From Phycisphaerae bacterium (lineage in GTDB: Bacteria > Planctomycetota > Phycisphaerae > Sedimentisphaerales > Anaerobacaceae): 64,000 bases of DNA. Position numbers and translations under genes: made by a program. The notes below the pieces were generated by a model. It was not told the origin of the DNA. It was given only the letters and a program-made list of their open reading frames with translations, and made no database searches. The stretch lies in NCBI GenBank assembly GCA_017993835.1, contig JAGOLX010000010.1, forward strand, positions 62,001 to 126,000. The letters run 5' to 3'. Of this stretch, positions 47,368-53,934 are shown one piece after another (position 1 is the first letter of the stretch; every line of letters starts with the position of its first letter).

Positions 47368-47508
47368 GAAACTCGAAATGCGAAGCACGAAACCCGAGAC
47401 AAATCCAAAGGACCAAAATCCAGAGGACCGAAACGCTGCCGCGCGTCGAAGCGTCCGTTTTGGATTTCGGATTTCGGTCATTTGTGCTCGTCTCGCATTT
47501 CGTGCTTC
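47368..47508 (-). repeat. Long dispersed palindrome, copy D
   Basis: Same orientation as copy C: GACCGAAACGCTGCCGCG centre, right arm GGATTTCGGATTTCGGTCAT, outer arms GCGAAGCACGAAA / TTTCGTGCTTCGC. Confidence 0.85.
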
Positions 47509-47562
47509 GCTGTCATTCCTGCACTGCAAAGGCGCAAGATCTTGTTTTCTTGGCAAGCATTT

Positions 47563-47936
47563 TCAGGCTACCAGCTTCGCGACATCCGCGTCACGCAGCC
47601 TCAGGGCCGCCGTCATGATCTGCTGTCCTTTGGGTGTAACGCGATAATAGCGGCAATCCGCAGAGCCTCGGCCTTTTTGTCCTCGTGGCTGCTGGCGATA
47701 AACTGGAACGGGCGACCCGCCTCCCGGGCCACCTGCCGACCTCGCTCGACCAATTGCTCCGACCACCCCAGGGCAACCTGCTTGAAATCCTCGTACCGAA
47801 CGCCCACACGGGCCAGAAACAGATCCATGCCCCCGGCGTAACAGATCGACCGCAGCGTGCCGCGAAAGCGAAGCCGGTCAAAACCCTCTCGAACCCCGAT
47901 GACATCCTGCTGGTGTCGCTGCATAAAGCCATCCAT
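47563..47936 (-). pseudogene. Internally deleted mobile-element-associated gene
   Basis: Starts MDGFMQRHQQDVIGVREGFD with AAGGAGC 7 nt upstream, then LRFRGTLRSICYAGGMDLFL, as in a widespread multicopy protein of about 450-500 aa. After about 105 codons the frame breaks near SHEDKKAEALRI. The characteristic family C-terminus (CRYYRVTPKGQQIMTAALRL then RDADVAKLVA and TGA at 47565-47563) follows in another frame. About 350 central residues are missing. Family recognition is from memory of the conserved ends; its biochemical role is not established. Confidence 0.7.
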
Positions 47937-48039
47937 GACGTTGCTCCTTGGAAACGGTACTGGACGATCGAATCTATACCGTACCCCAGAGAGCAACGTC
48001 TTTCATCTATATTGGGTTGCGGCCGTAGGCCGCTCCAAG

Positions 48040-48145
48040 AAAGCAGGAATCCAGGAACCCTGGGAGGCGGTGCAACCCAAAGAATGGATTCCCGCCCCCG
48101 AGCAGGTCGAGGGCAGGCTTTGCGCGGGAATGACAATCGAGGGGC
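48040..48145 (+). repeat. Dispersed repeat with GGGAATCCAG-type ends, copy 1
   Basis: About 100 bp from GGAATCCAGGAACCCTGGGA to GCAGGCTTTGCGCGGGAATG. A close copy in the same orientation lies at 51977-52086 and a short one at 37569-37600. The rest of 47937-48303 holds no gene that I can support. Confidence 0.75.
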
Positions 48146-48303
48146 TCCGTGAACCCCTACTGTACCCGCGCAGATACGGACGTGCATCCGGAGCGGGCGC
48201 CGTCCGGAGGTTCGTAGTGACGCCGTAGGGCGTTATCCTGCGACTCGCGACTCGTGGCCCGTGACCCGACGAGGCGCCCCTTCCGCGGGCGCTTGCAGGC
48301 ACA

Positions 48304-49350
48304 CTACGAGCTGCCCGGCCGGTCGTCGTCGGGTGTGCTCTCGGCCTGGATCTGGGTCAGTTGCAGGCCGAGACGGTCCAGGCGTTTCTGGCCGTCGTCG
48401 TATTTTCCGTAGGCGTTTCGCAGGTGCGTGCCGAGCGTGTCCCACGTGCTGAGGAACTCGGCGAACGAGCTGTTGAGCTTGCCCAGGTTGCGCCGGATCT
48501 CCGCCGCCTGCCGCTCGATCTGCAAGCCGTGCAGGCCCATCGCGACTGTCATCAGGTACGCGTACAGCAGGTTGGGCGAGACCGGGATCACCTTCTTGTC
48601 CATGCAGTGGTGCAGAAGGTCCACGGAGTCGCCTTCGCACTGGATCACCGTCTCGTAGTAGACGTTCTCGGCCGGCACGTACATCAGCGCGAAGTCGAGC
48701 GTGCCCTCCGCCGGGCGGATGTAGTCGGAGGCGATCTTGTCCACGTGGGCCGAGACATCCCGCAGGAACTGCCGCCGGAGCTTGGGCCTGTCGGCCTCGT
48801 CCGGGCACGCGACGATCCGCTCGAAGCTGGGCAAGGGGAACTTCGCGTCGATCCCGACCGCGAAGCCGGTCATCCGGACCAGGGCATCGACGATCCGACC
48901 GTCCTGGAACGCGTGCTGAAGCTCGAAGCTGTCTTGAGGCAGGACCTGAGCCAGCAGGTTTTCCAGTGACCACTCGCCGATCTGCCCGCGGAGCTTGGGA
49001 CTGGCGAGGATGTCCTGGAGTCGCTTGACGTCGATGCCGAGTCGGAGCATCTGTTTGTTCGTGCCCTGGAGCTCGCCGATCTGCGTGTTGAGCTGCTGGA
49101 GGACCTGCTGATTGGATTGCAGGCTCTGGGTCAGCGTGCTCTGCCCGGCCAGCAGGGAGCTGTGGAGCGTCTGCGAGGTCTTGTCCTGGGCTGCCTTGAG
49201 AGCTTCGAGCTGCTGCTGGAGCAGGGCGATCCCTCCGGCCTGACCGGCGACCTCCTGCCGGGCCGCGAGGCTCGATGAAATCAGCCACACCAGCAGCGCC
49301 AGCACAGCCAGCGTCAAAACCACAACCACCGCGATCAAACCCTGCAACAT
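48304..49350 (-). CDS. rmuC: RmuC-family DNA recombination protein
   Basis: 348 aa. N-terminal membrane helix (GLIAVVVVLTLAVLALLVWL), a Gln-rich coiled coil (about 35-115), then the RmuC nuclease-like domain: SPKLRGQIGEWSLENLLAQV, DALVRMTGFAVGIDAKFPL, DFALMYVPAENVYYETV and SPNLLYAYLMTVAMGLHGLQ. In E. coli RmuC limits inversions at short inverted repeats, notable here because the window is full of palindromes. GGGGA lies upstream of the ATG. Confidence 0.92.
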   Translation of the reverse strand: MLQGLIAVVVVLTLAVLALLVWLISSSLAARQEVAGQAGGIALLQQQLEALKAAQDKTSQTLHSSLLAGQSTLTQSLQSNQQVLQQLNTQIGELQGTNKQMLRLGIDVKRLQDILASPKLRGQIGEWSLENLLAQVLPQDSFELQHAFQDGRIVDALVRMTGFAVGIDAKFPLPSFERIVACPDEADRPKLRRQFLRDVSAHVDKIASDYIRPAEGTLDFALMYVPAENVYYETVIQCEGDSVDLLHHCMDKKVIPVSPNLLYAYLMTVAMGLHGLQIERQAAEIRRNLGKLNSSFAEFLSTWDTLGTHLRNAYGKYDDGQKRLDRLGLQLTQIQAESTPDDDRPGSS

Positions 49351-49631
49351 CGGAGAATCCCCACAGTCATGAAGACAACCAATAGAAGGATTGTAGGGTC
49401 TGTTGCGGCGTTCGTCAAAGGCGTCCGGCGGGACTACCCATCGCAAGGCGAGGGGCGTGACCCACAGTGGCCCGACGGCAGACTGCGAACACGGCCTCGA
49501 CGCGGCGTCTCGCGGATTGGCGATCGAACCATTGAGGCCAACGGATCGTATTGATATAAACAGGCCGCTCAAGGTGCATCCACACCGTAATGGCGGTCTA
49601 GCGATGTGAGAGGATTCTGCCACAATTAGGG

Positions 49632-49659
49632 TTGACAGATCCAAATCGGTCGGTATAGT
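49632..49659 (+). promoter_or_regulatory. Near-consensus sigma70 promoter
   Basis: TTGACA (49632-49637), 16-nt spacer, TATAGT (49654-49659). It is directed at the three-gene Cys/His family starting at 50427, with no recognised gene in between. Confidence 0.7.
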
Positions 49660-50426
49660 AGAGGAGTGTGGGTTGAGACGTGAACAAATGAGAGCCCACG
49701 CCAGCGAACCACAAGGCTTTTGTCGGGTGTGCCGGCAGGCCATTCACAATCACTTGTCTGAAATCGTTTGGTCTATTGTTGTCTGTCTGGATACTGTCAT
49801 TGGAGCACGGACATGGCCACCGCCAAGATCCATCTCATCTTGTCGACGCTGGGATCGCCGCACGGCGAGAATCCCTGCCGGAGCTTTCCGTGCGCGCTCC
49901 CCGGCCTGGCCCACGAGAGCAAGCATCCCCATCTCGCCAGGAGCGATGATCCACCGATAAGCGTTTCCCCGCCGACGGGTTCCGTGTCGGTCCCGCGTTC
50001 GTCTCCCACGTGCTGCTGATGCGACGGCTGTAGCGTCATTCCACGCGTATGGGGGACCATCCCTCCCCCACATCCCGGCAGTCTCGTCGTCGGAAGGATG
50101 CAGTGCGGGCTGTGAACGGGACTCCGACCTCGTCACACAATCACACAGTAGGAGTGCGCGAACATGACACAATCGAGAAGCGATCTATGCGCGACGGACC
50201 CTGACCGAATCGCAAACACTGTCAGAGTCAACGCCGGACGAAGAGGAGAGACCCGAATCGCAGGGCCGACATCGTGCCGGATGGGCGCGATTCCAGGTCC
50301 GCGGATACGAGAACCCGAATCAGGAACCAGACGCGGAGCGGTAGGCCCGTCCTGGAGTGGATCACGGCGAGGCGCGGCCGCTGCTTCGCGTCTGTGCCCG
50401 GACGCAAAGAGAAAGGAGATGAGTCA
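49660..50426 (+). other. Long leader or unannotated region
   Basis: About 765 nt downstream of the promoter without a supported gene. A frame from about 49673 begins with a Cys-x2-Cys segment (QGFCRVCRQAIHNH) but degenerates into low-quality sequence after about 50 codons. It may be a decayed gene, a small protein, or an untranslated regulatory leader. Confidence 0.35.
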
Positions 50427-51125
50427 ATGACCCACAAGAGAATACAGCAGATCATCACCGGAGCCATCACCGAAACGCCGATGGAGTCTTGGAAGTGCTA
50501 CCACGTGTGCTGGTGGGAAGGGGCGATCCAGTGCTGCCACGTCCACCACACAAAAGAGCATCACCCGTCGTTCTTCGCCGCCAATGGATCGGTATTCGCG
50601 GACGGACTGAACGAGTACCAGTGGAGACTCTTGACGAGCCGGGTGGAGGACTTCTGCCGCAGCCGCAGGATCTCGTTGACTCGCGGATGGCCGCGGCGCT
50701 GGCGGCAGACGACGCACTCGGGCAGGGAAGAACGTCAGATCACGGAGTTCGATTCTCTGCGTCTGAACACCCTGATTGCGGACATCAAGGCGCCCGGAGC
50801 GCCGGTGAGTCCCTTCCTGGACAGGCTTCAGCGGGTGCTGGAATCGGCCCGCACCGTGGCTCCCAGAGAGGTTGCGGCCAACGTCGTCACGATGAACTCG
50901 CAGGTGCGACTGAAGGATCCTAAGAGAAAAGACGAGATGACCTGTTCTCTCGTTTTCCCACTGGACGCCGTGAAAGGGGAGGACCTCGACAAGAGGAACG
51001 TCTCCGTCCTTTCTCCGATGGGTTTGTCGATGCTCGGGCGACGAGTCGGCGACACCATCGAAGGGCGCATCCAAGTCGACCAGATGCTGTATCAGCCGGA
51101 AGCCGCAGGGGATTTTCACCTGTGA
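50427..51125 (+). CDS. Cys/His-motif domain fused to Rnk/GreA-type module
   Basis: 232 aa, ATG with AGGAG 8-9 nt upstream. Residues 1-90 belong to a family shared with the next two genes: CYHVCWWEGAIQCCHVHHTK, EHHPSFFAANG, then LNEYQWRLLTSRV. Residues 102-232 match nucleoside-diphosphate-kinase regulator Rnk: ITEFDSLRLNTLI, VVTMNSQVRLKD, VSVLSPMGLSMLGRRVGDTI and LYQPEAAGDFHL, with the short N-terminal helices and the GreA/GreB C-terminal fold. Rnk-type proteins bind the RNA-polymerase secondary channel, so this may deliver the Cys/His domain to transcription complexes (inference). The N-terminal family is not recognised. Confidence 0.8.
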   Translation: MTHKRIQQIITGAITETPMESWKCYHVCWWEGAIQCCHVHHTKEHHPSFFAANGSVFADGLNEYQWRLLTSRVEDFCRSRRISLTRGWPRRWRQTTHSGREERQITEFDSLRLNTLIADIKAPGAPVSPFLDRLQRVLESARTVAPREVAANVVTMNSQVRLKDPKRKDEMTCSLVFPLDAVKGEDLDKRNVSVLSPMGLSMLGRRVGDTIEGRIQVDQMLYQPEAAGDFHL

Positions 51126-51208
51126 GCAGGTAGAACGTGCGATGGATCAACCTTGGCAAACCCTCGAACGGGCACGCGCATTGTGCGTGAGAGTCCAAAG
51201 GAGATGAC

Positions 51209-51532
51209 ATGATGGTGGAAAGACAGGTTCGAGACATGCTGATGAGCGCCATCGATGCCGCACAACCCGATCCACTCCGACACTACCATGTGTGTTACTG
51301 GCACGGTGAGATCCGGTGTCTTCCGTCTCGCCACACGACGAAGTCCCATCCGGTCTTCTTCACGATCGCGGGCCGGCTCCTGTCGCGTGGCCTCTCGCCG
51401 CGCCAGGTGTGGGTGCTGACGCATCGGGTCTTCCACATTTGCAAGATGACGGGCCTGTCGCTCGACGGCCTGTCCGGGAACAACGAGATGGTCGTCTCGA
51501 ACAGGCGTGAGCTTCAGGAGGAACTCGTATGA
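51209..51532 (+). CDS. Stand-alone Cys/His-motif protein (paralogue 2)
   Basis: 107 aa, ATGATG with AAAGGAG upstream. YHVCYWHGEIRCLPSRHTTK (26-45), SHPVFFTIAG and GLSPRQVWVLTHRVF align with the N-terminal domain of the gene before and the whole core of the gene after. The conserved pattern C-x7-C-x4-H-x4-H could bind a metal. No signal peptide. The stop overlaps the next start (ATGA), so translation is coupled. Confidence 0.75.
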   Translation: MMVERQVRDMLMSAIDAAQPDPLRHYHVCYWHGEIRCLPSRHTTKSHPVFFTIAGRLLSRGLSPRQVWVLTHRVFHICKMTGLSLDGLSGNNEMVVSNRRELQEELV

Positions 51533-51936
51533 GGATCGAAGGACAAATACGAAGCATCATAACAGGCGCCATCCGTGATGCGCAGGCCCATCCGGTCCGC
51601 GATTACCATGTGTGCTACTGGCAGGGCAGGATCCGATGTCTTGCCTCGCACCATACGACGAAGGCTCATCCGGTCTTCTTCACCGCACTGGGCCAGATCC
51701 TCGCGGCGGGCCTGTCGCCTCAGCAGTGGGAGGCGCTGACGCGTCGGATCCTCCATTTTCACAGGATGACGGGTCTGACGCTCAGCGGGCTGCCGTTCCC
51801 CCGTGTCGACGCGCGGGGGAACGAAGCCGACCGGCTGACCCATCAGTCCGGAGAATACGCCAGGAAGACGCGGACGCCCGGTGATTCGCCATGGTTCAGG
51901 GTCTGGGCCGTGTCAGGCTCGTGCCGGTCCTGGTAG
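51529..51936 (+). CDS. Stand-alone Cys/His-motif protein (paralogue 3)
   Basis: 135 aa. MRIEGQIRSIITGAIRDAQA at the start matches the IQQIITGAI of the fusion protein. The core YHVCYWQGRIRCLASHHTTK, AHPVFFTALG, GLSPQQWEALTRRILHFHRM is followed by TGLTLSGLP, as in paralogue 2 (TGLSLDGL). The last 45 residues are variable and may be non-conserved extension. Begins inside the stop of paralogue 2 (4-bp overlap). Function unknown. Confidence 0.75.
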   Translation: MRIEGQIRSIITGAIRDAQAHPVRDYHVCYWQGRIRCLASHHTTKAHPVFFTALGQILAAGLSPQQWEALTRRILHFHRMTGLTLSGLPFPRVDARGNEADRLTHQSGEYARKTRTPGDSPWFRVWAVSGSCRSW

Positions 51937-51976
51937 AACCCGCACCATAAATGGGGCCCCACTCCACCCCCGGGTT

Positions 51977-52086
51977 GTCATTCCCGCGAACGCGGGAATC
52001 CAGTTCCTGGGACGCGTTGCATACCACGGCTCGTGGATTCCTGCCCCCGATCGGGTCGAGGGCAGGCCTTAGCGCAGGAATGACAG
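51977..52086 (+). repeat. Dispersed repeat with GGGAATCCAG-type ends, copy 2
   Basis: Starts TCATTCCCGCGAACGCGGGA, continues ATCCAGTTCCTGGG and ends GGCCTTAGCGCAGGAATGAC. Same orientation as the copy at 48040-48145. Confidence 0.75.
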
Positions 52087-52112
52087 TGCCCAGCCCATGC
52101 CTCGTCGCCCCA

Positions 52113-52169
52113 CGCGATGCCTACGCGAAGCAGTTCAACTACGGCCTGGATGCCATCTGCGAAGACCAT
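52113..52169 (+). pseudogene. Fragment of the PIN partner gene
   Basis: Codons RDAYAKQFNYGLDAICED match RDAHAKQFNYDLDAICED of the small gene at 52781-52951, also at DNA level. No start, no following homologous tail. It lies upstream of the PIN gene, so it looks like a remnant of a second toxin-partner unit. Confidence 0.7.
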
Positions 52170-52238
52170 CGAAGAAGCCCAAATGAGGGCTGGCTCCGCT
52201 GTTCCGGGGTGCTGTTTCTCCGGACCCTGTCTACGGTA

Positions 52239-52266
52239 TTGGCACGCCCATCAGAATTGGTATAAT
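52239..52266 (+). promoter_or_regulatory. Sigma70 promoter of PIN operon
   Basis: TTGGCA (52239-52244), 16-nt spacer, TATAAT (52261-52266), about 38 nt before the PIN start codon. Confidence 0.75.
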
Positions 52267-52304
52267 CACAGGAGACCAAGGATCAGAGGCACAGTCGGAC
52301 AGTC

Positions 52305-52784
52305 ATGAAGCAGAAAGTATACATCGAAACCAGCGTCGTGAGCTACCTGTCGGGAAGGCTGTCTCGCGATGTCGTTGTCGTGGGCCGCCAGGAGATCACC
52401 CGCGAGATCTGGCCTCTCTTGACAGAGCGGTTTGATTGCTATGTCTCTGCCTTGGTGCGTGAAGAGGTCGAGCGTGGCGATCCCGAGGCGGCAGGCGGCC
52501 GACTCGCCGTTCTGGCAGACATGACGGCACTGACAATCTCGGACGAGGCTCGAGATTTGGCCAAGGCCATGATCCAGAACGGCCTGATGCCGTCGCAATT
52601 CGCCGAGGATGCGTTGCACATCGCCATCGCGGCCACGAACGGCATGGACTACGTCCTGACGTGGAACTTCCGCCACATAAATAACGTACAGACCAAAGTG
52701 AAAATAGAGACTCTCATCGAGGGCTGTGGGTACGAGCCACCCTTGGTGTGCTCGCCTGAGGAATTGTTCGGAGAATCGCCATGA
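52305..52784 (+). CDS. PIN-domain ribonuclease-type toxin (VapC-like)
   Basis: 159 aa. PIN fold acidic residues: Asp/Glu-type start VYIETSVVSYLSGR (here E in IETS in place of the usual D), EEVERGDPEAA, FAEDALHIAIAA (the conserved D) and WNFRHINN. The YIETSVVSYL variant is common in a PIN subgroup encoded before, not after, its partner. Such proteins cleave RNA when released from antitoxin. Strong promoter 38 nt upstream, ATGA overlap with the next gene. Confidence 0.85.
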   Translation: MKQKVYIETSVVSYLSGRLSRDVVVVGRQEITREIWPLLTERFDCYVSALVREEVERGDPEAAGGRLAVLADMTALTISDEARDLAKAMIQNGLMPSQFAEDALHIAIAATNGMDYVLTWNFRHINNVQTKVKIETLIEGCGYEPPLVCSPEELFGESP

Positions 52785-52951
52785 AGGATCCGATTGTCGA
52801 TGAAGTCCGCCGGGCGCGGGACGCCCACGCGAAGCAATTCAACTACGACCTGGACGCCATCTGCGAAGACCTCCAAAAACGCGAGAAGGCCTCCAGCCAA
52901 CCAACCGTCTCCCTGCCCCCCAAACGGATCACGAAGAAGAAGGCCGTGTAA
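52781..52951 (+). CDS. Small antitoxin-like partner of PIN protein
   Basis: 56 aa: MKDPIVDEVRRARDAHAKQF then NYDLDAICEDLQKR and a basic end PPKRITKKKAV. Amphipathic helical N-terminus. It starts in the PIN stop (ATGA), indicating coupled translation. Small proteins of this kind recur after PIN genes with the IETSVVSYL start, so it is likely the antitoxin, in the reverse of the usual antitoxin-toxin order; not proven. A partial copy lies at 52113-52169. Confidence 0.75.
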   Translation: MKDPIVDEVRRARDAHAKQFNYDLDAICEDLQKREKASSQPTVSLPPKRITKKKAV

Positions 52952-53208
52952 GACCGGCAAGGGACGACACCTCAGATCTGTGCGGAGTGGCCGTCCCCAC
53001 GCTTCAACGCAGTGTTTCTTGTCTTCCAGAAACAGGCTACAAATCCTCCAGAATCCTCTGCCCGCAGGAATACGCCACAGCTCATTCTGAAGAGGATAAT
53101 AGCGGGTGCGGACTCTTTGTATGCTTGCCCTGTTTTTCCCCAAGCCTGACCAGTTTTCTGACGATATTGTTAGCGGAGACTGTCTCTGAGCTTAGAAAGG
53201 AGAGCGAA

Positions 53209-53934
53209 ATGGAAATCACAGCCTTGCGCCGACTGACATGCGACCTTGTGGAAGAAGCGTGGAGTCAAGTCTCCGCGCTCCCTGATACCGAGCCCGCACA
53301 GGAAGTTCGGCGCTCAGTCGCCAGCTATTATCTCTTTGCATCAAGAGAGTATGTAGTGGGGGCTTGGCAAATGCTCAGCGAGAACAGACGATTGGCAGCT
53401 CTCGCCCTCTCCCGCTGGCCCCTTGAAGCCGCTCTGAATCTGCTGTGGGTGCTGGCGGGTAATGGAGAAGTCGATCAGCGTATAACTGACTTGCGAGCGA
53501 AGGCTCTCCGGCAGGAGGAGGCATTGCAGAGAGGGATTGCCGAGGCATTCCCCACTCTCGTCGTACCCCATGGAGAGACTGCGAAAAAGGTCGCAAACGC
53601 CGCTCGAAATCTCGGAGCCAGGAGGCTGGACTCTCTCGAAAGGCGAATGGAAGAGCTTGAGGCTACCGACATCGCGACTGGGAAGCTCGGCGAACTGGGG
53701 CCCAGACTCTATGTCTATTACAGAATCTGTTCGGTGGCGGTTCATGCGCACCCGAGGGTATGGGAGAACCCCGACAAGAGAGTAGCCAAGCCGTGGGTAA
53801 TATACCGTATTACCGCTTCTTCTCCTCTGTATCTGGTTGCAGCAGCATACTGCCTGACGGATAGCGGTGATATCGACAAGCTATACAAGTGGTGGGCCGA
53901 GGTCGAGTCGCTGTTAGACAAACAGGGAACGTGA
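53209..53934 (+). CDS. DUF5677-like helical protein
   Basis: 241 aa from the ATG with AAAGGAG upstream. All-helical, with LALSRWPLEAALNLLWVLAG and the late YRICSVAVHAHPRVWENP containing conserved Arg/His residues, as in DUF5677-type proteins, which are found near defence and toxin genes. Base composition is lower in GC than the core genes nearby. No signal peptide. Biochemical role unknown; family assignment is tentative. Confidence 0.65.
   Translation: MEITALRRLTCDLVEEAWSQVSALPDTEPAQEVRRSVASYYLFASREYVVGAWQMLSENRRLAALALSRWPLEAALNLLWVLAGNGEVDQRITDLRAKALRQEEALQRGIAEAFPTLVVPHGETAKKVANAARNLGARRLDSLERRMEELEATDIATGKLGELGPRLYVYYRICSVAVHAHPRVWENPDKRVAKPWVIYRITASSPLYLVAAAYCLTDSGDIDKLYKWWAEVESLLDKQGT

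Follow-up and report, generated by a model that had tools for sequence, protein, structure and literature searches.

Three tandem genes in the 64,000-nucleotide stretch of DNA analysed here (the window) encode proteins that share a domain of ~86 residues, referred to below as DOM, which gene 1 joins to a complete Rnk-type module and which genes 2 and 3 carry on its own. We conclude that DOM represents a real, restricted and apparently undescribed family, which in gene 1 appears to extend a factor of the RNA-polymerase-binding kind, with a function that we infer. Our tentative reading, to which we give somewhat less than an even chance, is that DOM is an interaction module stabilized by zinc, that Rnk tethers it to RNA polymerase, and that the free paralogues act as its partners or competitors in trans. 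The locus is organized as follows.

50427..51125, + strand: gene 1, DOM-Rnk fusion of 232 aa (ORF, Pfam, NCBIfam, fold and structure evidence)
50427..50684, + strand: DOM domain of gene 1, residues 1-86, with H26, C28, H41 and H46
50685..50735, + strand: linker of gene 1, residues 87-103, with pLDDT <50 at residues 87-99 (AlphaFold)
50736..51122, + strand: Rnk-type module of gene 1, residues 104-232, comprising two short helices and an FKBP-like GreA/GreB C-terminal domain
51209..51532, + strand: gene 2, free DOM protein of 107 aa with H27, C29, H42 and H47 (ORF and alignment)
51529..51936, + strand: gene 3, free DOM protein of 135 aa, whose start overlaps the stop of gene 2 (ATGA)
51859..51933, + strand: C-terminal tail of gene 3 (..SPWFRVWAVSGSCRSW), which the free DOM proteins in G005 and G006 also retain

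A first-pass annotation had described three tandem genes with one common domain, and the open reading frames at these coordinates bear this out. When gene 2 was used as the query in a whole-genome search of its own assembly, the matches were gene 3 (E=7e-31), gene 1 (E=1e-12) and, on contig C104, a fourth copy (E=5e-18). Gene 2 aligns without gaps over ~85 residues with both gene 3 (56%) and gene 1 (33%), and these gap-free alignments, together with their E-values, place the similarity of the three genes far above chance; the kinship proposed by the annotation thus withstands direct alignment. The C104 copy is likewise fused to Rnk, and a free Rnk gene comes after it. Overall, the genome contains four matches to PF01272: a GreA-like gene located elsewhere, the two DOM-Rnk fusions and the free Rnk that follows the C104 fusion. 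Genes 2 and 3 had been called stand-alone and coupled, which agrees with the lack of an Rnk part in either and with the ATGA overlap at 51529-51532. Plausible ribosome-binding sites precede gene 1 (AAAGGAGA) and gene 2 (AAAGGAG).

Comparison with orthologues in G005 gave dN/dS values of 0.17/0.43 for gene 2 and 0.26/0.58 for gene 3, while the DOM part of gene 1 gave 0.20/2.46 against G006. On these substitution patterns, genes 2 and 3 and the DOM part of gene 1 are under purifying selection. In a tree whose root and many forks lack resolution, genes 2 and 3 and the corresponding pair of G005 are united in a supported clade (97/98) that lies among the fused DOMs. Within it, gene 2 pairs with the gene 2 of G005 (100/95), which dates the duplication behind genes 2 and 3 to before the G000-G005 split. 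At the same locus in G005, beside an RmuC-like gene, the gene 2-3 pair is present and gene 1 is absent, with a DOM-Rnk fusion elsewhere in that genome. Since the pair persists there without gene 1, it does not depend on having that gene in cis. The arrangement of a DOM-Rnk fusion with this same pair behind it was seen in no genome besides that of the window. The placement of free copies among fused ones would fit loss of Rnk from a duplicate, and the dN/dS ratios of genes 2 and 3 (about 0.40 and 0.45) exceed that of the fused DOM; both would be expected if the two genes were functionless, decaying remnants of DOM-Rnk duplicates and the fusion alone mattered. However, genes 2 and 3 retain intact frames, a ribosome-binding site, the ATGA coupling and all metal residues, the pair and the tail of gene 3 are conserved in G005, and both copies have persisted since before G000 and G005 diverged. 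We consider decay very unlikely.

In gene 1, the last 129 residues form a complete module of the GreA/GreB fold and Rnk type, as the annotation had recognized. The module matches Pfam PF01272 with E=2e-11 and 44 bits, above the gathering score of 26.9, which places it in the GreA/GreB C-terminal superfamily. Against the NCBIfam Rnk model NF004396 it scores 73.1 bits (E=2e-20), under the curated equivalog cut-off of 109, and we therefore refer to it as Rnk-type and not as an Rnk equivalog. E. coli Rnk (PDB 3bmb) was the top match both by sequence (E=1.5e-12) and by fold (E=1.9e-12, TMt 0.76). Gene 1 has the Rnk-type arrangement of a short coiled coil, here helices 107-120 and 129-140, and an FKBP-like domain. 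Its C-terminal part thus resembles E. coli Rnk in combining a short two-helix N-terminal stretch with a GreA/GreB C-terminal domain, but gene 1 differs in the added N-terminal DOM and linker and in its sub-equivalog score. E. coli Rnk, an RNA polymerase binder without a known function, binds at the secondary channel and competes with GreA (PMC4598747).

DOM itself is predicted by AlphaFold to adopt an alpha-beta-beta-beta-alpha-alpha fold, with pLDDT of about 87-96 per ten-residue block both alone and in the fusion, while linker residues 87-99 are disordered in the model. No match to DOM was found in Pfam, NCBIfam or PHROGs, and no clear one in the PDB, and the domain, which the annotation did not recognize, appears to be undescribed in the libraries searched. 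Foldseek against PDB and BFVD returned nothing at E<=0.001, an absence that is no proof of a new fold, and the best match in VIA reached Z 3.8. Fe/Mn superoxide dismutase recurred as a weak match through its C-terminal domain, with Z up to 3.6 and an rmsd of 3.2-3.5 for ~80 aligned residues. Although these matches span nearly the whole of DOM, identity is below 10% and Z lies far under the values at which homology can be told apart from a merely similar arrangement. PL25 ulvan lyase was rejected as a homologue: the match covers 30 residues at E 0.04, consists of the metal motif alone and does not extend to the catalytic propeller.

With a domain profile, DOM-Rnk fusions were found in 14 genomes of five genera, all within one planctomycete family: seven of the nine genomes of the window's genus, and four more genera. 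This repeated co-occurrence answers a neighbourhood survey that the annotation had suggested. The count of five genera refers to DOM-Rnk, as plain Rnk matches extend to 13 genera. The named contigs come from Planctomycetota, Phycisphaerae or Sedimentisphaerales MAGs, and in a phylum-wide sample of 392 genomes the domain profile matched in the window's genome only. Related genomes (G016:C2, G097:C212, G065 and G090) also contain free Rnk-like genes in tandem, two to five per array.

A profile that included the element-borne form of DOM (described below) reached a second architecture. In 12 of the 161 genomes of the order, a DOM without metal residues precedes a PilZ (c-di-GMP) domain that scores over the cut-off of Pfam PF07238. 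These genomes do not overlap with those carrying DOM-Rnk, and both sets are phylogenetically clustered. The PilZ-type profile gave no match in a phylum-wide scan, whose sample contained no positive control. That all of these belong to one family is supported by hhalign: the PilZ-fused and element-borne sets gave scores of 45.5, 37.6 and 72.3 against null maxima of 23.8, 18.6 and 18.3, exceeding all 200 column shuffles, with an unrelated control at 8.5. Gene 1 thus has relatives in the same order in which a divergent DOM stands before PilZ; unlike these, it retains the metal residues and bears Rnk instead. A free Rnk follows DOM-Rnk at locus L003 and a free PilZ-like protein precedes DOM-PilZ at L103; with either output domain, then, a free copy is found in tandem with a fused one.

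The element-borne form was found on seven small contigs of G038 (L050, L051, L107, L108, L123, L124 and L125), in each of which a DOM-like gene overlaps a downstream tyrosine recombinase gene. Three of the seven carry 141-base terminal direct repeats and therefore look circular, at about 7.5-8.3 kb. On L050, the one contig tested, the recombinase matches the phage-integrase profile but lacks its first ~75 positions. L051 and L123 each encode a ParB-like protein, and a possible capsid-like protein is common to both. The contigs may represent one family of virus-like elements that are small and circular. Since DOM is fused to PilZ as well as Rnk and is paired with tyrosine recombinases, we regard it as a portable module that is not specific to RNA polymerase. 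The overlap with recombinase genes, the truncated recombinase and the apparent circularity would also suit a nucleic-acid-binding or recombination-accessory fold, derived from or common to small mobile elements, that brings nucleic-acid contacts to the polymerase via DOM-Rnk. Yet no known nucleic-acid-binding fold was among the Foldseek and VIA matches of DOM, PilZ has no obvious need for DNA binding, and the element-borne form was seen in one host genome only, with no relatives in phage and plasmid records or in the viral contigs scanned. We regard this explanation as unlikely. A broader version, to which we assign a low probability, is that DOM is a new family common to small circular elements, where its partner is a truncated tyrosine recombinase, and to host signalling proteins, Rnk placing it on the polymerase and the free copies acting as trans regulators.

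Alignment of 44 DOM members showed that H26, C28, H41 and H46 are retained or lost almost as a unit, giving the co-conserved pattern H26-x-C28-x12-H41-x4-H46 (HCHH). All four residues are present in 29 of 29 Rnk-fused or free chromosomal DOMs, which are related and not independent observations, and in two element-borne ones; at most one is kept in eight PilZ-fused and five element-borne members. Free copies with the site occur in G000, G005, G006 and G489. C36 behaves differently: the 13 HCHH-poor members keep it, and the two element-borne members with a full HCHH set have lost it. The annotation had proposed ligands in the pattern C-x7-C...H-x4/5-H. C28, H41 and H46 of that pattern hold and are joined by H26, but C36 varies on its own, and the C-x7-C pair is consequently not the best ligand set. 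DOM thus probably carries an HCHH metal site, as its conservation suggests. A similar motif (YHVCW...HTTERHDVYF) occurs in PL25 ulvan lyase (PLSV_3936, PDB 5uam), where H264, C266 and H278 together with H208 bind a structural zinc. By analogy, the metal in DOM would be zinc. PL25 is, in contrast, a beta-propeller enzyme with the fourth ligand placed elsewhere and a whole-sequence E of only 0.04, and we read the motif likeness as convergence. The PilZ-fused DOMs do without the metal residues, so metal is not required for the fold.

One Cys and three His ligands with near all-or-none conservation, in a domain fused to regulatory output domains, could indicate a zinc- or redox-responsive switch, in which metal loading or cysteine oxidation alters docking and hence Rnk activity, the PilZ-fused form of other lineages lacking the site. 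On the other hand, sites of this type are often structural, as described for that of PL25, and no metal-homeostasis or redox genes were recognized beside the fusions, whose neighbours were annotated unsystematically. A switch of this kind seems quite unlikely to us.

Two further features lie upstream of gene 1.

49632..49659, + strand: promoter-like TTGACA-16-TATAGT (identified by consensus alone; the region has 2 such matches against 0.7 expected)
49813..50019, + strand: conserved small ORF of 68 aa (MATAKIHL...KHPHLARSDDPP...), located in the DOM-Rnk leader (DNA and frame conserved)

Similar hexamer pairs were seen by eye 5' of the small ORF in L039, L040, L041 and L058. The ORF is putatively coding, with same-frame relatives containing KHPHLPRSDDPP in five other loci. 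Rfam gave no match over 47500-53500. A number of DOM-Rnk genes, as well as free Rnk genes in DOM-less genomes, are immediately preceded by a gene for a different protein of ~75 aa (MTKWTIEMKN...VYLEARGHYTYSIVLDMDEVG; L046 5679-5900, with equivalents in L012, L013, L044, L006, L014 and L016), which has no Pfam match and was not found in the window. Downstream of gene 3, window positions 52305-52784 encode a PIN-like protein (weak Pfam match) that overlaps a 56-aa partner (..AHAKQFNYDLDAICEDLQKRE) at 52781-52951 in a toxin-antitoxin-like arrangement, and a fragment resembling this partner lies at about 52100-52180. A short palindromic repeat, TCATTCCCGCGAACGCGGGAATCCA, and related stretches occur at 51976-52054 and 48043-48210 of the window, and in L053.

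The sequences compared here support a domain family and its architecture, a site of four residues that co-vary, purifying selection and the gene order. DOM stands before either of two output domains and also recurs as a free, coupled gene, as would be expected of an interaction or input module. In our preferred reading, that of a zinc-stabilized module tethered to polymerase, the common form of DOM would hold a metal in its H-x-C-x12-H-x4-H site, most likely a structural or sensory zinc. The Rnk module of gene 1 would dock at the rim of the RNA-polymerase secondary channel in competition with GreA. Its short coiled coil would be too short to reach the active centre, and the flexible linker would keep DOM on the outer face of the polymerase. 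The free DOM proteins, which come from the same presumed operon and share the fold and site, would most likely act in trans by binding either the fused DOM or the target of the fused DOM, and the level of the gene 2 and gene 3 proteins would set the share of polymerase-bound DOM that is engaged. We infer the identity of the metal, polymerase binding, DOM-DOM binding and an effect on transcription; that DOM meets a partner or target is suggested by the architecture.

A lineage that places an input-like domain on Rnk and keeps free copies of that domain would offer a handle on the role of Rnk. The three contexts of DOM, with Rnk, PilZ and recombinase, would join transcription, c-di-GMP signalling and mobile elements within one planctomycete order.
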